The position numbers and the translations under genes were made by a program. A stretch of DNA of 64,000 nt from an uncultured Bacteroidales bacterium (GTDB lineage Bacteria > Bacteroidota > Bacteroidia > Bacteroidales > UBA932), in contig CAJONI010000020.1 in the NCBI GenBank assembly GCA_905235995.1, positions 1-64,000 on the forward strand, written 5' to 3'. The notes beneath the pieces are model-generated. The model did no database searches. It was not told where the DNA came from and was given only the letters and a program-made list of their open reading frames with translations. Every line of letters begins with the position of its first letter. Positions within the stretch are counted from its first letter, which is position 1. Shown here piece after piece: positions 3,842 through 51,786 of the stretch.

Positions 3842-3870
3842 CGCCCCCGCACTTTCTCCTGCTTTTTTTT

Positions 3871-3981
3871 CGCTGCAATGTACACACTTGACCGACAGCC
3901 GTTTATGCAAACTCCTCCCCTTGCCGGACGCGGGGAGGACATCTTGTAATGCCCTGATATAGTGTTGCGTCCATTGCAGCG
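3871..3981 (-). repeat. 111-bp TIR element (MITE/REP-like), copy A, inverted relative to copies B and C
   Basis: TIRs CGCTGCAATGTAC/GTCCATTGCAGCG; about 4 differences from copy B over 111 bp in hand alignment. Confidence 0.9.
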
Positions 3982-4005
3982 GAAAAATTAGTACCTTTGC
4001 AGTCT

Positions 4006-5391
4006 ATGGCAGAAAACATTCCTCTTGAACTCGGGACGGAGCCGGTCGGCAAGCTGCTGAAGAAGTACGCTATGCCAGCGATCATCGCGATGACCGCTTC
4101 GTCGCTGTATAACATGGTCGACAGCATCTTCATCGGGCAGGGATGCGGTCCCATGGCCATTTCCGGCCTGGCTCTGACCTTCCCGCTGATGAACCTGTCA
4201 GCCGCCTTCGGCACGCTCGTGGGCGTGGGCGGAGCCACCCTGATCTCTGTGCTGCTGGGACAGAAGAACTATCCCGTAGCCAAGAAGGTGCTTAGCAACG
4301 TCTTCATCCTGAACGTGTTGGTCGGCGTGCTCTTCGCTGCCATCACCCTGACTTTTCTCGATCCTATCCTGCGCTTCTTCGGCGCCAGCGACGCCACGCT
4401 TCCCTATGCCCGCAGCTACATGATCCCAATCCTGCTGGGCAACGTGATCACGCACCTTTATTTCGGACTGAACTCCATCGTGCGCGTATCGGGCCATCCG
4501 CAGAAGGCAATGTACGCCACCATCCTTACCGTCACGCTCAACACGTTCCTGGACCCGATCTTCATATTCCTATTCGACATGGGCATCCAGGGCGCGGCCA
4601 TCGCCACGGTCCTTTCGCAGACCGTATCCCTGATCTGGATTATGCGCATCATCTGCGACAAGCGGGAGTTCCTGCACCTGTCGCGCGAGACCTTCGGCTT
4701 GGACTGGGGAATCGCGAAGCGTTCGCTCTCCATCGGCATGGCGCCGTTCCTGATGAACGTAGCTTCATGCTTCGTGGTGATTTTCATCAACAACCAGTTC
4801 AAGCGCTACGGCGGCGATCTGGCCATCGGAGCCTACGGCATCGTCAACCGGGTGATTTTTCTCTTCCTGATGGTAGTCATGGGCTTCAATCAGGGCATGC
4901 AGCCCATCGCTGGCTACAATTATGGTGCGAAGCAGTACGGGCGCGCACTGGAAGTACTGAACCTCACTATCAGGTGGGCCATCGTGGTTACGAGCATCTG
5001 CTTTGTCGTGGGAATGTTCTTCCCCAGGGCGGCAGTGTCGCTGTTTACCCACGACCCCGAACTGATAGACCTGGCTGCCAGGGGTTTCCGCATCACGGTC
5101 GCCATCTTCTTCATAATCGGCAGGCAGATGGTCATCACCAATTTCTTCCAGAGCATAGGTCTGGCCAACAAGGCCATCTTCCTGTCGCTCACCCGGCAGC
5201 TGATCTTCCTGCTGCCTTTCCTGGCCATCCTGCCGCTCTGGTTGGGAGCCGACGGCGTGTGGCTCAGCATGCCTGCGTCCGACCTGGCCGCACTGATCAT
5301 AACCGAGATAATGCTGGCAAGGCTCAAGAATAGCTTCCGCAAGGAGCAGGAGGCCATGGCCGAAATCCCCGCAACAGTTTCAGAACAATAA
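4006..5391 (+). CDS. MATE family efflux transporter
   Basis: Multi-TM protein with MATE signatures; ORF-track TTG start lies inside the promoter box, ATG at 4006 preferred. Confidence 0.88.
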   Translation: MAENIPLELGTEPVGKLLKKYAMPAIIAMTASSLYNMVDSIFIGQGCGPMAISGLALTFPLMNLSAAFGTLVGVGGATLISVLLGQKNYPVAKKVLSNVFILNVLVGVLFAAITLTFLDPILRFFGASDATLPYARSYMIPILLGNVITHLYFGLNSIVRVSGHPQKAMYATILTVTLNTFLDPIFIFLFDMGIQGAAIATVLSQTVSLIWIMRIICDKREFLHLSRETFGLDWGIAKRSLSIGMAPFLMNVASCFVVIFINNQFKRYGGDLAIGAYGIVNRVIFLFLMVVMGFNQGMQPIAGYNYGAKQYGRALEVLNLTIRWAIVVTSICFVVGMFFPRAAVSLFTHDPELIDLAARGFRITVAIFFIIGRQMVITNFFQSIGLANKAIFLSLTRQLIFLLPFLAILPLWLGADGVWLSMPASDLAALIITEIMLARLKNSFRKEQEAMAEIPATVSEQ

Positions 5392-38043: not shown

Positions 38044-41000
38044 ATGGAAGATAAATTTACGATGCCCGACTACCTGTTCGAGACGAGTTGGGAAGTATGC
38101 AACAAGGTAGGAGGTATCCATACGGTCATTGCCACCAAAGCCCTTTATCTTGGCAATTCATTCAAGAAAAACCATCATATACATATCGGCCCCGACGTCT
38201 GGCGTGACGTAGGCCAGAACCCGGAATTCACGGAAGACCCCACGCTGTTCCGCTCCTGGAGGAGAAGGGCGGCGGAGGAGGGCCTCCGTATCCGTGTCGG
38301 CCATTGGAACGTGGCAGGCCACCCGGTGGCCATCCTGGTCGACTTCACGACCTTCATCAGCCGCAAGGACGAGATCCTGACCGAGTTCTGGAAAAGATAC
38401 AGCGTCGACTCCCTCAGCGGCGGCTGGGACTATGTGGAATCGGCCCTGTTCGGCTATGCCTCCGGCAAGGTGATCGAGAGTTTCGTTCACTACTATGTCA
38501 AGCCCCACGACAAGGTGGTGGCCCAGTTCCACGAATGGATGACCGGCGCCGGCCTGCTCTACCTGAAGACGGCCAACCTGCCCATAGGCACCATCTTCAC
38601 CACCCATGCCACCGTCATCGGTCGCTGCGTGGCCAGCAAGGACATCCCTCTCTACGACGACCTGGAAAGCCTTGACGCCGACCGCCTCTCCCACGAGTTC
38701 GGAGTCGCGGCCCGCCACTCGCTGGAGAAGGCTTCCGCCACTGCGTCCGACGTGTTCACGACTGTGAGCGAGATCACCGCCCGCGAGTGCCGCCAGTTCC
38801 TCGGCAGGTCTTGCGACGTGATCACTCCCAACGGTTTCGAGAACAGCTTCACCCCCGACGCGGAACACTATCCCGCAGCCCGCAAGGCAGCCCGCAGGAA
38901 GCTGCTGGAGGTTGCCTCGGCGATGGCCGGCGAGAAATTCGACGACAAGAGCCTGCTCGTCGCCATAAGCGGCCGCTACGAGTACAGCAACAAGGGTATC
39001 GACGTGTTCATCGACTCGCTGGCACGTCTGGACAGCATAGGTTATTCCGGGCGCAGGATCCTGGCCTTCATCATGGTCCCCTCGGGCAACAACGGTCCCG
39101 ACAAGGAACTTGTGGCGAAGCTCTCCGGAGCCGATACGCTCCACACCACCCAGACGAGCCACTATCTGATGGACGACTACGACATCGTGACCCGCAGGCT
39201 GCGTGAACTTCAGCTGAACAACCACATCGGCTCGACTATCGACGTGTTCTTCATCCCCACCTATCTGAACGGCAACGACGGCGTGTTCAACATGAGCTAC
39301 TACGACCTGCTGGTGGGCATGGACCTGACCGTCTTCCCTTCATACTATGAGCCCTGGGGTTACACCCCGCTCGAGTCGCTGGCCTTCAGCGTCCCCACCA
39401 CCACCACCTCGCTCGCCGGTTTCGGCGTGTGGGTGCGCGACCACTGCGAGGAGCCGCATCCGGGCATCACGGTGATCGAGCGCACTGACGCAAACGCTTC
39501 GGAACTGTCGGTAAAGGTGGCCGAACGCATCATCGAAGTCGCCAGCCTCACTCCGGCAAAGGCGGCACATTATCGCGAGAACGCCAAGAAGGTGTCGGAG
39601 ATCGCTCTGTGGAGCAACAACATCGTCTACTACAAGGAAGCCTACACCGGCGCCATAGACAAGGTGCAGACCTCCCGCAACGAGTTCATCGAGATTCCGG
39701 AAGACACGATGCACGACTTCGCCAGGTATTTCGCCGGCCAGCCTTCATGGACCAGCGTGTTCGTGAGCCGTGAACTGCCTGAACGCCTGATGCATCTGGA
39801 CGCACTCGCCAAGAATCTGTGGTGGTGCTGGAACCAGGATGCCATCGAGCTGTTCCGCAGCATCGATCCCGAGCTTTGGAAAACCACTGGTGGCAATCCG
39901 CTGCTCTTCCTCGACAAGATTCCGCTCAAGCGCTACCGCAGCCTGGAGCAGGACGAAGCCTTCCTGGGCCATCTCGACTCCGTGTATGCCGAATTCAAGG
40001 AATACATGGAAGCCAAGTCCGACCGTCCCGGTCCCCGCGTAGCCTATTTCTGCATGGAATACGGCATCGACACTTCCCTGAAGATCTATTCCGGCGGCCT
40101 GGGCATCCTGGCCGGCGACTACCTCAAGGAAGCCTCCGACATGAAGGTCAACATGACCGCCGTCGGACTGCTCTACCGCCACGGCTACTTTACCCAGAAA
40201 CTTTCGGCCGCCGGCGACCAGATCGCCGACTACGAACCCCAGGACTTCACCAAGATCCCTGCGGCGCCCGTGCGTGACCACGAAGGCAACTGGTTGACCG
40301 TACGGGTCGCATTCCCTGGCCGTAACATCAACGCCCGCATCTGGAAGGTCGAGGTGGGCCGTACCGACCTCTTCCTGCTCGACACCGACTACGAAGACAA
40401 TCTCCCCGAAGACCGCCAGGTGACCCATCAGCTCTACGGCGGCGACTGGGAGAACCGCCTCAAGCAGGAACTCCTCCTCGGCGTGGGCGGCATCAGGGCC
40501 CTCCGAGCCCTGGGCCTTGACGCCGACGTGTACCACTGCAACGAAGGCCACGCTGCCTTCTGTGGTTTCGAGCGCCTGCGCGAGTACATCCAGAACGATA
40601 ACCTGTCCTTCCCCGAGGCTCTCGAAGTGGTGCGCGCATCGTCGCTCTTCACGACCCATACCCCGGTGCCTGCAGGACATGACGCATTCTCCGAAGACCT
40701 TCTCCGCATCTACATCTCGCACTATCCCGAGCGCATGAAGATCGACTGGCCTACGTTCATGAGCCTGGGCAAGATCAATCCCGAGAATCCCGGCGAGAAG
40801 TTCTCGATGAGTTTCCTGGCCGCGAACCTCTCGCAGGAGATCAACGGCGTGAGCTGGCTGCACGGCAAGGTGAGCCAGCAGATTTTCGCGCCCATGTGGC
40901 CGGGCTACCTGCCCGAGGAACTCAACGTGAGCTCCGTGACCAACGGCGTCCACTATCCCACCTGGACCGCTCCCGAATGGAAGGAGATCCACTCCAGGGT

Positions 41001-42276
41001 GTTCGGCAAGGAATTCGCGACCCACCACTACGACAAGAGCTGCTTCGAAGGCATCTACCAGGTGCCCGACGAACTGATCTGGCGCACCCGCCAGACTCTG
41101 CGCAAGCGCCTCATCGACAGGGTGAAGGAAGTGATGTCCGACGCCAGCCTGACCCGCCACTATTCTCCCCACGAGATAGTGAAGATACGCAAGACCCTGC
41201 GCGACGACGTGCTGACCATCGGCTTCGCGCGCCGTTTCGCCACCTACAAGCGGGCCACTCTGCTCTTCAGCAACCTCGACCGTCTCAACGACATAGTCAA
41301 CAACCCGCAGCACCCGGTGCAGTTCCTCTTCGCCGGCAAGGCGCATCCCGCAGACAAGGCCGGACAGGACCTGATCAAGCGCATCATCGACATCTCGAAG
41401 ATGCCGCAGTTCCTGGGCAAGATAGTGTTCGTGCCCAACTACGACATCACCATCGCGAAGCTGCTGGTGCAGGGTGTCGACGTGTGGATGAACAACCCGA
41501 CCCGCCCGCAGGAAGCTTCCGGCACCAGCGGCGAGAAGGCCGTGATGAACGGTGTGATGCATTTCTCTGTGCTCGACGGATGGTGGGTGGAAGGCTACAA
41601 GCCCGGAGCGGGCTGGGCGCTCAAGATGGAGCGTACCTACGACAACCAGTCGTTCCAGGACGACCTCGACTCCTCCACGATCTACAATATCCTCGAGTCG
41701 GAGATCGTTCCCAGTTTCTACGACAAGGACACCTACGGCATCTCCAAGACCTGGGTGGAGACCATCAAGAACACCGTGGCCCTGGTCGCCTGCAACTTCA
41801 CGACCAACCGCATGCTCTCCGACTACATGAGGCAGTACTACGAACCTCTCTGCGAACGCTTCCACAAGCTCGAGGCCGACGATTTCAACCTGGCCCGCGA
41901 CATCGCTTTCTGGAAGAAACGCGTCCGCCGCGAGTGGAAGCAGGTAGAAGTGATATCGTTCCGGCGTCCTTCCCTGAACGAAGCCACCATCTCCCTCGGA
42001 CAGAAGTATACCTCGGAGCTTACGCTTTCCATCGGGGAGCTCGAACCCGAGGATGTCGGCGCCGAGATCCTGCTCACCGAGCAGAACGCGAAGGGAGAGC
42101 ACCACATCGTATCTGTGTTCGAATTCCAGCTCAAGTCGTACGAAGGCGGAGTGGCTACCTATGTCACCGATGTCGTCCCCGAAATCTCCGGGACCTACGA
42201 GACTGCCGCCCGCATCTTCGCAAAGAATGCGGAGATGCCGCACCGTCAGGATTTTGAACTGGTGAAATGGCTGTAG
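38044..42276 (+). CDS. Fusion: GT3-type glycogen synthase and GT35 alpha-glucan phosphorylase (1410 aa)
   Basis: N-term EVCNKVGGIHTVIATKA, VAQFHEWMTGAGLLY; C-term LAKNLWWCWNQDAIELF, NPTRPQEASGTSGEKAVMNGVMHFSVLDGWWVEGY. Confidence 0.9.
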   Translation: MEDKFTMPDYLFETSWEVCNKVGGIHTVIATKALYLGNSFKKNHHIHIGPDVWRDVGQNPEFTEDPTLFRSWRRRAAEEGLRIRVGHWNVAGHPVAILVDFTTFISRKDEILTEFWKRYSVDSLSGGWDYVESALFGYASGKVIESFVHYYVKPHDKVVAQFHEWMTGAGLLYLKTANLPIGTIFTTHATVIGRCVASKDIPLYDDLESLDADRLSHEFGVAARHSLEKASATASDVFTTVSEITARECRQFLGRSCDVITPNGFENSFTPDAEHYPAARKAARRKLLEVASAMAGEKFDDKSLLVAISGRYEYSNKGIDVFIDSLARLDSIGYSGRRILAFIMVPSGNNGPDKELVAKLSGADTLHTTQTSHYLMDDYDIVTRRLRELQLNNHIGSTIDVFFIPTYLNGNDGVFNMSYYDLLVGMDLTVFPSYYEPWGYTPLESLAFSVPTTTTSLAGFGVWVRDHCEEPHPGITVIERTDANASELSVKVAERIIEVASLTPAKAAHYRENAKKVSEIALWSNNIVYYKEAYTGAIDKVQTSRNEFIEIPEDTMHDFARYFAGQPSWTSVFVSRELPERLMHLDALAKNLWWCWNQDAIELFRSIDPELWKTTGGNPLLFLDKIPLKRYRSLEQDEAFLGHLDSVYAEFKEYMEAKSDRPGPRVAYFCMEYGIDTSLKIYSGGLGILAGDYLKEASDMKVNMTAVGLLYRHGYFTQKLSAAGDQIADYEPQDFTKIPAAPVRDHEGNWLTVRVAFPGRNINARIWKVEVGRTDLFLLDTDYEDNLPEDRQVTHQLYGGDWENRLKQELLLGVGGIRALRALGLDADVYHCNEGHAAFCGFERLREYIQNDNLSFPEALEVVRASSLFTTHTPVPAGHDAFSEDLLRIYISHYPERMKIDWPTFMSLGKINPENPGEKFSMSFLAANLSQEINGVSWLHGKVSQQIFAPMWPGYLPEELNVSSVTNGVHYPTWTAPEWKEIHSRVFGKEFATHHYDKSCFEGIYQVPDELIWRTRQTLRKRLIDRVKEVMSDASLTRHYSPHEIVKIRKTLRDDVLTIGFARRFATYKRATLLFSNLDRLNDIVNNPQHPVQFLFAGKAHPADKAGQDLIKRIIDISKMPQFLGKIVFVPNYDITIAKLLVQGVDVWMNNPTRPQEASGTSGEKAVMNGVMHFSVLDGWWVEGYKPGAGWALKMERTYDNQSFQDDLDSSTIYNILESEIVPSFYDKDTYGISKTWVETIKNTVALVACNFTTNRMLSDYMRQYYEPLCERFHKLEADDFNLARDIAFWKKRVRREWKQVEVISFRRPSLNEATISLGQKYTSELTLSIGELEPEDVGAEILLTEQNAKGEHHIVSVFEFQLKSYEGGVATYVTDVVPEISGTYETAARIFAKNAEMPHRQDFELVKWL

Positions 42277-45266: not shown

Positions 45267-45944
45267 CTAAAGGACTGACTTCTTGCTGATTCCGGCGACG
45301 AAGTCTTTCAGATAGAAGGGTTCAAAGTACGCAACGTCTTTGAACTCTTTTTTTTGCAGCTGCGCCAGGGCCGGAGCGGCCATTGCTGTGGCAAGCGGAT
45401 GACAGGACTGGAAGCGGGCGTTGGGGTGATGGCAGACCGCCTGGAACTTCTCTGCGCCTGTACCTATGAAGAGCACGGTTCCGGCGTCCAGCAGTTCGCG
45501 GAAACTGTCTTCATCGAGGATTTTGGCTTCGGTTCCGTCCAGTTTGGTCCCCTTTGTGTCGAAGGTGGCGCAGTAAACTTCCATCCTTCGGGCGTCTATC
45601 ATGGAGACTATGCGTTCCGCTGGTATTTCTGCCTGCAGCGCGAGGATCTGGAGGGTGTCTACGCCCAGCAGCGGCTTGCAGGCGCCGAAGCAGATACCCT
45701 TGGCGGTCGATACGCCCACCCGGAGGCCGGTGTAGGAACCCGGTCCTTCGCTGACGGCGACGGCGTCAAGCTCCGAGGCGGTGATGCCGGCTTCGTCAAG
45801 CACTTCCTTGATATAGGGGGCGAGCATGGCCGACTGGCGTCGCGGGGTCTCGTCTATCCGGCTGGCCAGTATCCCGGCGCCGCAGGAGATGGCTGCGGAG
45901 CAGCTCTCCGTGCTGGTTTCTATCATCAGTATCCGTTCATTCAT
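45267..45944 (-). CDS. tsaB: tRNA t6A37 biosynthesis protein TsaB
   Basis: ILMIETSTESCSAAI, VSEGPGSYTGLRVGVSTAKGI. Confidence 0.93.
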   Translation of the reverse strand: MNERILMIETSTESCSAAISCGAGILASRIDETPRRQSAMLAPYIKEVLDEAGITASELDAVAVSEGPGSYTGLRVGVSTAKGICFGACKPLLGVDTLQILALQAEIPAERIVSMIDARRMEVYCATFDTKGTKLDGTEAKILDEDSFRELLDAGTVLFIGTGAEKFQAVCHHPNARFQSCHPLATAMAAPALAQLQKKEFKDVAYFEPFYLKDFVAGISKKSVL

Positions 45945-45955
45945 GCTTCTCGCAT

Positions 45956-47092
45956 TTATTTGACCTTGAGCCTTTTGCCTTCCGTGATCCTCTGGGATAC
46001 GGCCTCCGGGGGACCAGTGACCACCTGGTCGTCTTCCTGCAGTCCGTCCCGGATCTCGATCCGGTCCAGTTCCTGGATGCCGGTCACCACCTTCCGTGCC
46101 CGTGCGGTGCGACCTTCTTCCACAATCCAGACATACTCCTGTCTGTCCCGGGTGAAGATGCAGGTGACCGGAAGTGTGAGGCAGTCGTGCCTCCGGTCAG
46201 TGACAATCTTCACGGCTGCGGACATACCGGGCAGGAACTTCGCGGAATCGGGCTTCAGCTCAATCCGGACGCCAAAGTTAGCAACTTTTGCAGAATTGGC
46301 AAGCTGTGTGACGACCCCACGGAACTGCCTGCGGGGGTAGGCGTCTATCTCCACTATGGCACTGTCGCGGGGTTCTATCCTTACTATGTCGTTTTCGCCG
46401 ACATCGACCGCTACCTCCATCCGGCTGAAATCCGCAATGCGGAAGAGTTCGGTTCCGCTCATCTGACTCGTTCCGACCACCCTTTCCCCCTTCTCCACGT
46501 TCATACGGGAGACTATGCCGTCCATCGGGGCATACACAGTGGTTTTCAGCAGGTTCTCCCTGGCTTCATTGAGCTGGGCCTCCCCGCTGCGGATGGCGTA
46601 TTCAGCTGCCCGAAGGCTGCTTCTTGCTATGTCCAGTTCCGTCTGCGACTGCTGCAGTTCGGCGGCGGAGATGGCGTTGAGCTCATAGAGTCTCCTGTTG
46701 CGCTCGTGGTTGGAGCGGGCCTGCCGCTCTTCGGCTCTCTGCCGCGCGTATTGAGCCTTGAGCGTGCCCAGGGAAGCGTTGGCCTGGTCGACCTGCGAGA
46801 GATAGAGGTCCTGCCGTATCTTGAGGATCAGGTCGCCGGTCTTTACCGAATCGCCCTCTCCTGCGAAAATGTCGACCACTTCACCGGAAACGTCCGGCGT
46901 GATCTTCACCTCCACCACGGGGCGGATGGTGCCTGAGGCCGGAACCGATTCCACCATGTCGGCCCTTGTGGCATGCCCGGCCTCGACTTCCAGCCTTGCA
47001 TCGTTTCCCGGACGCAGGCTGAGCAGCAGTAGCAGGGAAAGGGCTCCCAGCAGCCACTTCTGCCATTTTTCAAGCGGAAAGATGCGTATCAT
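45956..47092 (-). CDS. Periplasmic adaptor subunit (MacA/HlyD-like) of the peptide-export locus
   Basis: TM anchor; VKITPDVSGEVVDIFAGEGDSVKTGDLILKI lipoyl-like; long coiled coil. Confidence 0.88.
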   Translation of the reverse strand: MIRIFPLEKWQKWLLGALSLLLLLSLRPGNDARLEVEAGHATRADMVESVPASGTIRPVVEVKITPDVSGEVVDIFAGEGDSVKTGDLILKIRQDLYLSQVDQANASLGTLKAQYARQRAEERQARSNHERNRRLYELNAISAAELQQSQTELDIARSSLRAAEYAIRSGEAQLNEARENLLKTTVYAPMDGIVSRMNVEKGERVVGTSQMSGTELFRIADFSRMEVAVDVGENDIVRIEPRDSAIVEIDAYPRRQFRGVVTQLANSAKVANFGVRIELKPDSAKFLPGMSAAVKIVTDRRHDCLTLPVTCIFTRDRQEYVWIVEEGRTARARKVVTGIQELDRIEIRDGLQEDDQVVTGPPEAVSQRITEGKRLKVK

Positions 47093-48390
47093 GGCCTGTA
47101 GCGTTCCAGCAGCTTGAGCTGGAAGAGATACTGCCATTTCGCCTGGAGAAAGTCGGAAACGGCCTTGAAATGATTGTTTCGGGCTACTATATAGTCGAGA
47201 GCGGTAGCCGCGCCGAGGTTGTATTTGGCTTCCGTGACATCGAGCAGGTTCTGCATGGCGCGGAGCTTCTCTTCAGACGAGAGGTATTTCTGGCAGCAGT
47301 TCTCGGCTTCTATCGCGGCGCTGCGTACCTCTTCCTCCACGCCGCTGCGGGCCTTCTCAAGTTGCAGTGCAGCCCTGTCGGCGGCTCTCTGGCTGCGCCG
47401 GACTTCGGAGATGGTCTGCATGGAGTTGAAGACAGGGATGTCGAGCTGGATGGTCAGGGAAGGGTTGCGGTTCTCCTCGAACTGTGTCCCGAACCTGCTG
47501 TCGGCTGCGCTGCTGTAGTAAGTTCCGTAACTGGCGCCCAGACGCAGGCTGGGGTAGAGTGCGGCCTTTGCCCGGGCCTCGTGGTGCCGGCTTTCCGCAA
47601 GGCGTGCGCGGGCGCTCAGGATCCTGGGATCCCCCTGCACATAGTCTTCGACCTGAGTTTCGGTGATTACCGGAATCCTCCGCGCTATGGAATCCTGCCC
47701 GAACGCTTCGCCGGCGGTAAAAGTGGTTTCGCCAGGAAGGTTCATCAGTCGGGTGAGCGTGAGCGTGGCCGTGCGGACCTGGCAGGCGGCGTCGACCATC
47801 GCAGCCTTTTCCGAGGCGACCTGCGCCTCGATCTCGTCGAGGGCGCTCTTGGGCTGGCTGCCCGTCTCCACCAGGGAAGCCGTCCGTTCGCGCTGCAGCA
47901 CTATGGTCGCATGACGCTCGCAGGCGTAGGCGTGGATCTGCCTGGCCAGCATGAGCTGGAGATATGCCCGGGTCACGTCGAGAGTCAGGCTCTGCTGCAG
48001 GTTGTCGGTATCGTGCCGTGCGGCTGAAGCGGCAAGCCAGGCTGCCTGGCTTCCATGGTACCCCGCCAGCCCGTCGAACAGGGTGACGGAAGCGTTTATC
48101 GAAGCTCCGGTGGCATGTGTCAGTTTGTTGCGGATAATTATAAGTTCCTGCATGTCAACGCTTCTGCCCCAGTTGAGCTCTTCGCCTACGCTTACGCTGA
48201 GCGCGGGCAGCATGGCCCACTGGCGCTGTTTCCATTCGTCCTGGCGTGCAGCGGTTTCGAGCCTCTGCTCCCGCAGGCTCAGGTTATGCTCGAGGGCATA
48301 GCTTATGCAGCGGTCGAGAGACCAGCTCTCCTGGGCGCCTGAAGGCCATGCCGAGGCAGCCAGGAACATTATGACGAGTAGTGTCTTCAT
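47089..48390 (-). CDS. TolC-family outer membrane efflux protein
   Basis: Signal peptide MKTLLVIMFLAASAWPSGAQ; two OEP repeats; overlaps adaptor start by 4 bp. Confidence 0.9.
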   Translation of the reverse strand: MKTLLVIMFLAASAWPSGAQESWSLDRCISYALEHNLSLREQRLETAARQDEWKQRQWAMLPALSVSVGEELNWGRSVDMQELIIIRNKLTHATGASINASVTLFDGLAGYHGSQAAWLAASAARHDTDNLQQSLTLDVTRAYLQLMLARQIHAYACERHATIVLQRERTASLVETGSQPKSALDEIEAQVASEKAAMVDAACQVRTATLTLTRLMNLPGETTFTAGEAFGQDSIARRIPVITETQVEDYVQGDPRILSARARLAESRHHEARAKAALYPSLRLGASYGTYYSSAADSRFGTQFEENRNPSLTIQLDIPVFNSMQTISEVRRSQRAADRAALQLEKARSGVEEEVRSAAIEAENCCQKYLSSEEKLRAMQNLLDVTEAKYNLGAATALDYIVARNNHFKAVSDFLQAKWQYLFQLKLLERYRP

Positions 48391-48400
48391 GGCTAAGAAT

Positions 48401-48422
48401 GGGTCTCTCCGAAGAGAGACCC
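48401..48422 (-). promoter_or_regulatory. RNA hairpin GGGUCUCUC-UUCG-GAGAGACCC between the peptide genes and tolC
   Basis: Perfect 9-bp stem with cUUCGg tetraloop on the transcribed minus strand; no T-tract follows. Confidence 0.85.
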
Positions 48423-48434
48423 TGTCCTTGGTGA

Positions 48435-48587
48435 TCAAATGGTAGGCTCTCTCTTGAAGAGGAAGATCGTCCCGATGAAACGGGCGATGACCCCAATGAT
48501 ATAGCCGATAGTGTAGAGCGCGTCCTGCGCTTTCTTGTCCACACCGCCCCATACCAGGGCGGCTTCATTCATTGCGAGTTCCCTCAT
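48435..48587 (-). CDS. Putative GG-leader peptide 2 (50 aa), bacteriocin-like, not in supplied ORF track
   Basis: Manual translation MRELAMNEAALVWGG/VDKKAQDALYTIGYIIGVIARFIGTIFLFKREPTI; preceded by AGGAGG 8 nt from ATG. Confidence 0.78.
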   Translation of the reverse strand: MRELAMNEAALVWGGVDKKAQDALYTIGYIIGVIARFIGTIFLFKREPTI

Positions 48588-48599
48588 GGCGGTGTCCTC

Positions 48600-48806
48600 C
48601 TAGGAAATCAGCGTGGTGCTACCCAGGAAGCCGTCCTTGAGTCCCTTCAATAAATTCGGCAGATAATCGGCAATCGTGTCGATAAGATTGCGGATTTTCT
48701 CGAAGATGGTGGCGAACGTCGACTTGCTGGCGCCTCCACGCATCTGGAGTTCGGAAGAATCCAATTCTCTCAAACCCCTTCCATACATCTTGATAGTTTC
48801 TTCCAT
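48600..48806 (-). CDS. Putative GG-leader peptide 1 (68 aa), bacteriocin-like
   Basis: Leader MEETIKMYGRGLRELDSSELQMRGG then amphipathic ASKSTFATIFEKIRNLIDTIADYLPNLLKGLKDGFLGSTTLIS; next to a C39 ABC transporter. Confidence 0.82.
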   Translation of the reverse strand: MEETIKMYGRGLRELDSSELQMRGGASKSTFATIFEKIRNLIDTIADYLPNLLKGLKDGFLGSTTLIS

Positions 48807-48873: not shown

Positions 48874-50943
48874 TTATGTTTTCATATGAATTTTTTTCTC
48901 GGCTATGGCGGCGTTGCCGTCGTTGTGCGTGATCATCAGCACCGTCCCGCCTTCGTCACGGAATCTTACGACCCGCCTGAGCAGTACCTCCTGCGACGCC
49001 GGATCGAGCGAGGCGGTAGCCTCGTCGAGTATCAGGACTGCCGGTTCGCGGTATATGGCGCGGGCCAGGGCTATGCGTTGCCTTTGTCCTCCGGAGAGCG
49101 TGCAGCCGCGCTCCCCCACGCGCGTGAACAGCCCCATCGGGAGCTCACGTACCATCGGCCCGAGATCCAGTTCTTCCAGCAGGCGTACCACCCGTTCCAC
49201 GTCGGGCGAAGGATCCATGCAGGCGATATTGTCGAGCAGGGTGCCGTTGACCAGCACGGGGTCCTGCGGAACGATGGACACGAAGCGGCGCCATGCTTCC
49301 AGGCTGTAGAGCCGTATGTCGTGCGGCCCGAGCCTTATCGTGCCGGAATCCACCTTGTAGTCGCGCATCAGCAGGGCTGCCAGGGAACTCTTGCCGCAGC
49401 CGCTCGGCCCCTGAAGTGCGGTGATACGGCCTGCTTCAAGGGTGAGATTGAAGCCCTGGAGCAGCTTGTTGCCGCCGGGGTAGGAAAAATCTATGTTATC
49501 GAAGACCAGGTCGTCTCCGACCCTGGGCTCGAAGCCTTCGATGCCTTCGTCCTCCGGCGGAAGCAGGGTGATGTCGTTGAGGCGTTCCCAGGCTATCCGG
49601 GCTTCGGTCCAGGTGGCTCCCACTCCTACAAGCTCGCTCAGGGGGGAGGAAAACCATGAAGTGAGTGAGTAGAAAGATACGAGTGCCCCTACCGTGAGCG
49701 AGCCGGAGAAGATATAGCTGGAACCTGCGGTCAACAGGGTCAGTGTCAGAAGTTTGGAGATACCGTCGGCCGCGGAGGCGAAGCCGTCGGCCCAGCGGCC
49801 GCCGCGGAAGAGCCGTCCTGCGAGCAGCCTGTATTCCTTTTCGATGCCGCGCAGCAGCCTTTCGCCCTGTCCGAAATACCGGACCACGCGTACGGCCGCG
49901 ATGCCTTCCACGGTCCTCTCTTCGAAGACAGCGGACTGTTCGATAATGTCCCTGTTCACCCTTCTGTTCACACGGTCGGCGACCAGGTACAGGACCAGAT
50001 AGACCGGAATGAATGTCAGCATGAGTAGGGAAAGCCGCCAATGGGTGGTGAACATGAGGGTGAACGAGACAAGCAGTATCAATGTGCCGGTAAGCACGGA
50101 AGAGACGCCTTCGACCAGGAACTGCCTCACCTTGGCCGCGTCGCCCACGCGTGCGTTGAGCTCTCCTGCGCCCCGCCTGACAAAGAATGAGGCAGGAAGC
50201 CGGAACAGATGCCTTAAATATTTCAATATCAGATGACTGTCGAGCGTTATGCTGAGGCGAAGGGAGTACAGCACCCTCCCGTAGCCAACCATCAGCGTGC
50301 AGAGCATGATGGCCAGCATCAGCAGTCCGAAACGGGCGAGGCCGTTGCTGTCGCCGGAAGGCAGGATATGGTCGATGATGTGCTGCAGGAAAAGTGCGGT
50401 GCAGATTCCGGCGACTATGTAGACCAGCGAACCCGCCAGCATCAGGGCGAACTCCCGGGCTGAGAGCGCCCGCAGGCATGAGAACACTGAGGTCCGTGCC
50501 GGGACGGGAGTCTCACGACCGGTGCGGTCAGGGTCGGGCGACATTGTTACAAGGTATCCGGTCCAGGCTTCCCTCAGTTGCGACGCCGGCATCCTGACCA
50601 TCTTGCCGAAGGACGGGTCCATTATGCGTGCGTGGGTGGGGGAGAGGGAGTAGAGGACTACGAAATGAAGGTCTCCGAGGTGGTTTACCACGTGTAGCAT
50701 GACCGGGTCGGACAGTCCGGCGAGGCTGTCGAGGCTGCGTTCGTCAGACTTGTAGGCGCCGGCCTTGAAACCGAGTTCCCTGCATGCGTCGAGCACTCCC
50801 TTGATGCTGGTCCCGGCCAGGGACGTCCCCGATGCTTCCCGGATGGAGGTCAGGGGGATGTCGATGCCGTAGTGCCTGGCTATCGAGGCCATGCATGCTG
50901 CCGCGCAGTCGGAAGGGTCGTGTTGTCTGATGTTCTTGCGCAT
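48874..50943 (-). CDS. Peptidase-containing ABC transporter (PCAT, C39 peptidase + TMD + NBD)
   Basis: C39: QHDPSDCAAACMASIARHYG, NHLGDLHFVVLYS, IMDPSFGK; NBD: GPSGCGKSSLAALL, LSGGQRQRIALARAIYREPAVLILDEATASLD. Confidence 0.95.
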   Translation of the reverse strand: MRKNIRQHDPSDCAAACMASIARHYGIDIPLTSIREASGTSLAGTSIKGVLDACRELGFKAGAYKSDERSLDSLAGLSDPVMLHVVNHLGDLHFVVLYSLSPTHARIMDPSFGKMVRMPASQLREAWTGYLVTMSPDPDRTGRETPVPARTSVFSCLRALSAREFALMLAGSLVYIVAGICTALFLQHIIDHILPSGDSNGLARFGLLMLAIMLCTLMVGYGRVLYSLRLSITLDSHLILKYLRHLFRLPASFFVRRGAGELNARVGDAAKVRQFLVEGVSSVLTGTLILLVSFTLMFTTHWRLSLLMLTFIPVYLVLYLVADRVNRRVNRDIIEQSAVFEERTVEGIAAVRVVRYFGQGERLLRGIEKEYRLLAGRLFRGGRWADGFASAADGISKLLTLTLLTAGSSYIFSGSLTVGALVSFYSLTSWFSSPLSELVGVGATWTEARIAWERLNDITLLPPEDEGIEGFEPRVGDDLVFDNIDFSYPGGNKLLQGFNLTLEAGRITALQGPSGCGKSSLAALLMRDYKVDSGTIRLGPHDIRLYSLEAWRRFVSIVPQDPVLVNGTLLDNIACMDPSPDVERVVRLLEELDLGPMVRELPMGLFTRVGERGCTLSGGQRQRIALARAIYREPAVLILDEATASLDPASQEVLLRRVVRFRDEGGTVLMITHNDGNAAIAEKKIHMKT

Positions 50944-51029: not shown

Positions 51030-51185
51030 CTATAGGAATAAAAAGACCGACAGGACGGACAGTACGAGGGTTGCCGTTAGCAGAAGTGCATACAGAAAGC
51101 CAGAGGTGGTGAAGGAATCGGGCAGGAGATGCCGTACGGTCACGTCCAGGTCGGTCAGGGGGTGCATCCGGGGTTCGCGTTCCAT
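51030..51185 (-). CDS. 51-aa single-TM protein upstream of the PCAT gene, candidate immunity/accessory protein
   Basis: Manual translation MEREPRMHPLTDLDVTVRHLLPDSFTTSGFLYALLLTATLVLSVLSVFLFL; not in supplied ORF track. Confidence 0.6.
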   Translation of the reverse strand: MEREPRMHPLTDLDVTVRHLLPDSFTTSGFLYALLLTATLVLSVLSVFLFL

Positions 51186-51285
51186 GTCGCTCGGTTTTTG
51201 TTTCCGAGTGCAAAGTTCGGCAGCGCGAACGGATTAGCGCCCGCAAAAGAGCAAAATCTCACCTGGGTGAGAAAAAAGAAAAAAA

Positions 51286-51786
51286 TTAAATTTTTACCTG
51301 CTGGAAAAGTTCCTGGAAACGGGGGAAAACCTCCCGCGAAAGATTGAGCAGGGCGGGGTAGAAGCGCGACTCCTGAAGCTTCTCTTTCGGTATGAATTCC
51401 ACGATGTTATTGGCAGAATCGATCAGGTATACGATAACCGAGGCGGCCAGGGCGAACAGGCAGAAAGTCATCACGATCCCGAGCAGCCTGTTGAGCCAGC
51501 CCAGGAGAGAAATCTTGATAATTTTTTCGACGATTCGCCCCAACATGCTTAAAAGCACCGCAATTACAAAAAAGACAAGGATGAAGGAAACGGCTTTGGC
51601 CCAGAAATCTGACATCCCGGCGCTCTCCGGAAACCATTGCGCCACCTGTGGGGCGAAACGGAGGGAGAGAGTGATGCCGAAATAGAGGACGGCGATTGCG
51701 ACCAGTTGCCTGACAAGTCCGTTCCTGATTCCGAACCAGAGGACCGGCAGGAAACAGCAAACGATGACGATATCGACTATGCCCAT
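51286..51786 (-). CDS. CvpA family membrane protein
   Basis: MGIVDIVIVCCFLPVLWFGIRNGLVRQLVAIAVLYFG; CvpA topology. Confidence 0.85.
   Translation of the reverse strand: MGIVDIVIVCCFLPVLWFGIRNGLVRQLVAIAVLYFGITLSLRFAPQVAQWFPESAGMSDFWAKAVSFILVFFVIAVLLSMLGRIVEKIIKISLLGWLNRLLGIVMTFCLFALAASVIVYLIDSANNIVEFIPKEKLQESRFYPALLNLSREVFPRFQELFQQVKI

Follow-up and report, generated by a model that had tools for sequence, protein, structure and literature searches.

A conserved pair of GG-leader peptides beside a C39 exporter in the Bacteroidales family UBA932, a candidate two-peptide antibacterial system

The 50-aa open reading frame p2 (48435-48587, minus strand) is a genuine gene under purifying selection. 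It is the second of two small peptides, p1 and p2, that make up a GG-leader pair and are kept together, in this order, beside an exporter gene. The cassette that carries them is vertically inherited and fixed in its lineage. We moderately favour the reading that p1 and p2 constitute a class IIb-like two-peptide antibacterial system, which, judging from the genes around them, would be exported by a C39 peptidase-ABC exporter (PCAT) with HlyD- and TolC-type partners. In the window, by which we mean the whole stretch of 64,000 nucleotides analysed, the cassette has the order tmORF-PCAT-p1-p2-hairpin-TolC-HlyD and lies between cvpA and tsaB. The features are:

51286..51786 (-), CvpA (Colicin_V production family; PF02674, 1.8e-25), conserved upstream neighbour that borders the insertion site
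51210..51214 (-), TTTGC, belonging to a promoter-like element of the Bacteroidota -7 type upstream of tmORF
51030..51185 (-), tmORF, 51 aa, one C-terminal TM-like stretch, first cassette gene, located after cvpA and before the exporter gene; candidate for an immunity function
48874..50943 (-), PCAT, C39 peptidase-ABC exporter, 689 aa (Pfam Peptidase_C39, ABC_membrane, ABC_tran)
48600..48806 (-), p1, 68-aa GG-leader peptide paired with p2; residues 24-25 are the GG, and KGLKDG contains the GxxxG
48596..48601 (-), AGGAGG, the Shine-Dalgarno (SD) sequence of p2, which shares bases with the stop codon of p1
48435..48587 (-), p2, 50-aa GG-leader peptide made up of a 15-aa leader (48587-48543) and a 35-aa mature core (48542-48438), mature sequence VDKKAQDALYTIG
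48401..48422 (-), hairpin GGGTCTCTC-TTCG-GAGAGACCC in the p2-tolC gap, candidate attenuator or mRNA end
47089..48390 (-), TolC-family outer-membrane channel, 433 aa (OEP 3.5e-43; TIGR01844 5.8e-36, below cut-off)
45956..47137 (-), HlyD/RND-type periplasmic adaptor (TIGR01730 4.6e-57, above cut-off; HlyD_D23 5.3e-20)
45267..45944 (-), TsaB-like protein (named by sequence recognition, no profile), conserved downstream neighbour and other edge of the insertion site

p2 is a conserved gene with a GG leader

The earlier note had read p2 by hand from the minus strand as a GG-leader peptide missed by the ORF track. Retranslation gave the identical sequence, MRELAMNEAALVWGG/VDKKAQDALYTIGYIIGVIARFIGTIFLFKREPTI*, and the ORF tool shows p2 once its cut-off is lowered below 60 aa. 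The details of that reading were reproduced as well. The p1 stop codon ends at 48600 and the p2 ATG lies at 48587, which leaves the described gap of 12 nt; AGGAGG is found at 48601-48596, 8 nt before the ATG and overlapped by the TAG stop of p1. The leader carries L at -12, E at -8, V at -4 and GG at -2/-1 and has no L at -7. Its length of 15 aa holds for the subclade of the window only, since leaders elsewhere in UBA932 have 16-25 aa. The core contains the proposed GxxxG spacing (GYIIG), and its description as a hydrophobic helix with a basic C-terminus agrees with an AF2 model, in which residues 18-44 form a helix (block pLDDT 95), with a net charge of +2 and a mean hydrophobicity of 0.72 over 19 residues.

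A tblastn search of 61 genomes recovered p2 in 34 of the 37 genomes of the genus, at one copy per genome and with E values of 1e-7 to 1e-29; the best match in other families of the order was at chance level (E = 0.016). When 300 family genomes were searched with a profile, p2 turned up in 37 of the 40 that belong to the window's genus. Every copy in the genus is in frame, without stops and at the same position. The three genomes without p2 (G007, G012 and G020) also lack the neighbouring cvpA, so that the region is probably missing from these assemblies, and we rejected a loss of p2 there. Beyond UBA932, the p2 profile matched only twice in the order, and weakly (E 0.002-0.003). Both matches were discarded, as one sits inside a long ORF and the other on a contig of 3.96 kb on which no neighbouring gene could be recognised.

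In the closest usable genome pairs the dN/dS of p2 was 0.05-0.25, far from the value near 1 that the earlier note had named as speaking against a conserved frame. Within the 16-genome subclade, where synonymous sites are partly saturated, the mean pN/pS of p2 was 0.21, compared with values of 0.37 (p1), 0.35 (exporter) and 0.43 (TolC). Identity across the genus is 57% in the p2 core versus 27% in its leader; for p1 it is 60% in the leader versus 46% in the core. The leader positions that matter for the GG-leader reading are retained in relatives: GG in 74/74 p1 and 74/74 p2 sequences, E at -8 of p2 in 69/74 and V or I at -4 in 70/74. The retained frame, a dN/dS well below 1, the retained GG and E-8 and a neighbouring exporter with an intact C39 triad all uphold the interpretation of p2 as a GG-leader peptide. 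That p2 is a chance ORF or an annotation artefact is suggested by its length, below the common 60-aa cut-off. Frame conservation and dN/dS rule this out, and the occurrence once per genome in the genus and the SD-like site before p2 likewise speak against it; the probability we leave to this explanation is negligible.

p1 and p2 form a tandem

The 34 genus genomes in which tblastn recovered p2 also contain PCAT and one copy of p1 each. The tandem of p1 followed by p2 downstream of PCAT was seen in 74/74 UBA932 loci first read, 40 of which represent eight genera besides that of the window, and in about ten loci read later; in the 74 loci the two are never apart. The deeper branches have the same PCAT-p1-p2 arrangement except for L152 and L154, where the contig ends without an exporter, and L151, where the script did not pick out p2. 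A family-wide p1 profile matched in 120/250 family genomes and gave no match in about 243 genomes of the order that belong to other families.

A strict GxxxG is present in 71/74 p1 cores and 66/74 p2 cores, where 16.0 and 13.5 were expected from shuffled residues. The looser small-xxx-small motif was uninformative (56-61 expected). In the window the mature peptides have about 43 aa (p1) and 35 aa (p2). The p1 core is amphipathic, with a maximal moment of 0.65, and its structure model is of low confidence (pLDDT 64). PDB searches with the p1 and p2 profiles gave matches at chance level, and Pfam and NCBIfam searches with all p1 and p2 members gave only single chance-level matches, for example to lactococcin G-beta (0.009 and 0.019).

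p1 and p2 each possess a GG leader, and their translation signals differ, which would suit two independent single-peptide, microcin-like bacteriocins that share one exporter. The 15-aa leader of p2, which we take to resemble those of class II microcins, points the same way. However, two such bacteriocins would hardly be expected never to part in 74 loci and nearly always to keep a strict GxxxG in both partners, and we consider this explanation unlikely.

Exporter, channel and adaptor

In the genus the order cvpA-PCAT-p1-p2-tolC-hlyD is found wherever the contig allows. The best PDB match of PCAT is an ABC-type bacteriocin transporter (1.5e-94), followed by ComA. The C39-like domain of HlyB-type transporters is inactive. 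PCAT of the window retains Cys13, His93 and Asp109, the C39 triad, as well as Walker A and LSGGQ, and for this reason it should cleave GG leaders. Translation of the adaptor may instead begin at an ATG further downstream, near 47092, where TolC stops. In four loci (L114, L117 and L120 of g197 and L132 of g188) PCAT, p1 and p2 are present and tolC and hlyD are gone after p2; adaptor and channel may come from elsewhere in these genomes.

p1 and p2 could also be small membrane components of the exporter or the envelope that are matured and inserted by the same system. Their co-conservation with the exporter and the hydrophobicity of p2 are compatible with this. The conserved GG leaders and the intact C39 protease, however, imply cleavage and release, and we know of no PCAT-HlyD-TolC exporter that needs such peptide partners. 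We therefore hold a structural role to be very unlikely.

For the favoured two-peptide system, we envisage that p1 and p2 would be synthesised as GG-leader precursors, that the C39 domain of the adjacent PCAT would cleave after GG during export, and that the HlyD-type adaptor and TolC would take the peptides across both membranes. The mature peptides are predicted to be helical, p1 amphipathic and p2 hydrophobic with a basic end. Most likely they pack against each other through their GxxxG motifs in the membrane of competing, probably related, bacteria and act there as class IIb two-peptide bacteriocins do. Cleavage, secretion, physical pairing and antibacterial action are here deduced from gene content and motifs.

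Insertion site, distribution and descent

The site between cvpA and tsaB is empty in two other UBA932 genera (G061 and G344), where tsaB directly follows cvpA. In G349 the cassette lies between the two genes and a TsaB homologue follows HlyD, as in the window. In L158 and L159 (g188) the cassette does not have its usual place and orientation immediately after cvpA, which suggests a local rearrangement. The Bacteroidales MAGs that carry p2 were obtained from rumen, omasum and horse faeces, among other sources, and include Candidatus Cacconaster. Cacconaster and Equibacterium have been placed in the GTDB family UBA932 (PMC8957277).

Mirror-tree correlations were too mixed to be used alone, and a gene tree of the exporter was used instead. 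In this tree of 68 PCAT proteins each genus forms one clade. The number of label changes is 11, which is the minimum, versus 43 in shuffles. The single clade for every genus argues against recent transfer between genera. The tree was rooted by a single outgroup row, the more distant PCAT of G038 (34%), which has no such peptide pair beside it and was for this reason used as outgroup only. Within the window's genus, p2 is present in every genome in which the region is assembled.

Bacteriocins are usually patchy and diverse. It is unusual for them to be strictly fixed, to occur as a single copy, to show no trace of transfer from genus to genus and to have a well-conserved mature peptide. Fixation and conservation are the strongest argument against the antibacterial reading, as they would also fit a role in signalling or in the envelope.

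Candidate immunity genes

The first cassette gene, tmORF, was not in the ORF list and has no Pfam match; it is kept at the same place in 28 genus loci. We regard it as a putative present-day protection gene. It is missing from three loci of the genus (L042, L046 and L050) and thus cannot be indispensable. tmORF or a similar protein was found in g1, g188, g194 and g200 and not in g197, g28 and g203. A 42-aa protein with one TM segment, CbnZ, protects against carnobacteriocin XY (PMC8538875).

A second candidate lies between p2 and tolC. All three g203 genomes read have a PF02517 gene (Rce1-like, CPBP/Abi) of 235-246 aa at this place (8e-15, 1.5e-14 and 1.5e-15), and g199 has a shorter one (163 aa, 1.6e-6). 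Abi-family proteins serve as immunity proteins for plantaricins EF and JK (PMC8538875). In the exporter tree, rooted by its one outgroup row, g199 and g203 branch off before all others, and on this basis the presence of the Abi/CPBP gene may be ancestral and its loss later. It is absent from all other loci, and g197 and g28 thus have neither candidate. With the Abi/CPBP gene confined to g203 and g199 and a patchy tmORF, there is no uniform immunity gene. Producers of bacteroidetocins are likewise without one (PMC6671954). In the g199 locus L153, an HTH-like ORF lies between exporter and p1 (3850-4143, plus strand), a possible regulator.

These observations also bear on another explanation, namely that an ancestral two-peptide bacteriocin has lost its immunity gene and become a lineage-wide secreted cue for density or kin, or a self-directed envelope peptide pair, which the producer itself senses or uses. 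The presence in every genus genome with the region assembled, the minimal number of label changes in the exporter tree, a p2 core that is better conserved than its leader, a pN/pS of p2 below that of the exporter and an Abi/CPBP gene in the two earliest branches only are all in keeping with it. Against it, the crown group has a cassette without a sensor kinase or regulator gene, two unlike GxxxG peptides are atypical of pheromones, and tmORF could be an immunity gene after all. We view it as possible, if somewhat doubtful. As a more specific and still tentative scenario, to which we give slightly less credence, a two-peptide bacteriocin might have entered the cvpA-tsaB site at the base of UBA932 or close to it, have lost its Abi/CPBP gene and have turned into a core, vertically inherited pair that is not a weapon, with a function as lineage-wide signal or in the envelope.

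Expression signals

An SD-like GGAGG precedes p2 in 58-62 of the 74 loci and p1 in none (0/74). Such a site was found in 5.6-7.7% of 610 other long ORFs; p2 thus retains a strong SD and p1 none, in genomes where few genes carry one. Upstream of tmORF, TTTGC occurs within 60 nt in 24/28 loci, against 1.7 expected. In the p2-tolC gap, all 16 loci of the subclade share a perfect 9-bp hairpin stem, in which one base pair covaries in L039/L040; several of the other loci have unrelated hairpins and others none. Rfam gave no match in the region. Because of the gene spacing, p1 and p2 are likely to share a transcript. One operon, with the peptide genes mid-way and reduced read-through into tolC, would be the simplest arrangement.

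Elsewhere in the window, an 832-aa open frame (39745-42243, minus strand) lies on the strand opposite a long gene of glycogen phosphorylase/synthase type and is probably a high-GC artefact.

Discussion

In the literature searched, which was covered in part, no two-peptide system from Bacteroidota was found; this absence is not proof that none has been described. UBA932 is a large, mostly uncultured family known largely from rumen, horse and digester genomes, and peptide secretion appears to be undescribed for it. A fixed, vertically inherited two-peptide system differs from the usual view of bacteriocins as patchy and fast-changing. The series of loci in which the Abi/CPBP gene is present, tmORF is present or neither is found offers a route to how a producer protects itself, or to how a toxin takes on another role. 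That an SD is conserved on p2 alone is a separate oddity.

The cassette shares features with several known systems. Like class II microcins (microcin V/colicin V, CvaAB-TolC), it has a 15-aa GG leader in the window's subclade, a PCAT-adaptor-TolC set through which export would proceed and a CvpA-family neighbour; cvpA itself appears to be a plain neighbour. It differs in that it encodes two peptides, occurs in Bacteroidales, has longer leaders in relatives and is a core gene set, not one of a plasmid or island. Searches for enterobacterial microcins matched no microcin family in Pfam or NCBIfam. Bacteroidetocins come from Bacteroidota and are unmodified peptides with a GG leader of 15-16 aa and a C39-ABC exporter, for which no immunity gene was found (PMC6671954). 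They are single peptides with at least two cysteines, accompanied by a thiol oxidoreductase and a TM gene. In contrast, p2 of the window has no Cys and comes with a partner peptide, HlyD and TolC, and no thiol oxidoreductase is found among the cassette genes.

In the Gram-negative Caulobacter, CdzC and CdzD make up a two-peptide system (PMC5380434). The peptides are small and hydrophobic, carry glycine motifs and are exported by type I secretion, and immunity is provided by a small transmembrane protein. Two peptides in a Gram-negative host, type I secretion, glycine motifs and a small transmembrane protein as candidate for immunity are common to both systems. CdzC and CdzD have extended GxxxGxxxG zippers with small hydrophobic residues, whereas p1 and p2 of the window, by reading their sequences, have one GxxxG each, along with residues that are charged or aromatic. 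A patchy occurrence and frequent lateral acquisition also set Cdz-like systems apart from the p1-p2 cassette.

With the class IIb bacteriocins of Gram-positive bacteria (plantaricins S, EF and JK, lactococcin G), the differences lie in the Gram-negative UBA932 host with its PCAT-HlyD-TolC set, and in a fixed, vertically inherited cassette without a uniform immunity gene. In addition, p1 and p2 had no significant match to curated bacteriocin families in Pfam and NCBIfam. Since immunity is not uniform, no curated family matches and activity is deduced from sequence, we describe the pair as class IIb-like and do not file it as a member of the class. What the two have in common is two adjacent, different short peptides with GG leaders and GxxxG or GxxxG-like motifs, a PCAT and, in part of the UBA932 family, an Abi-family or small membrane protein nearby.
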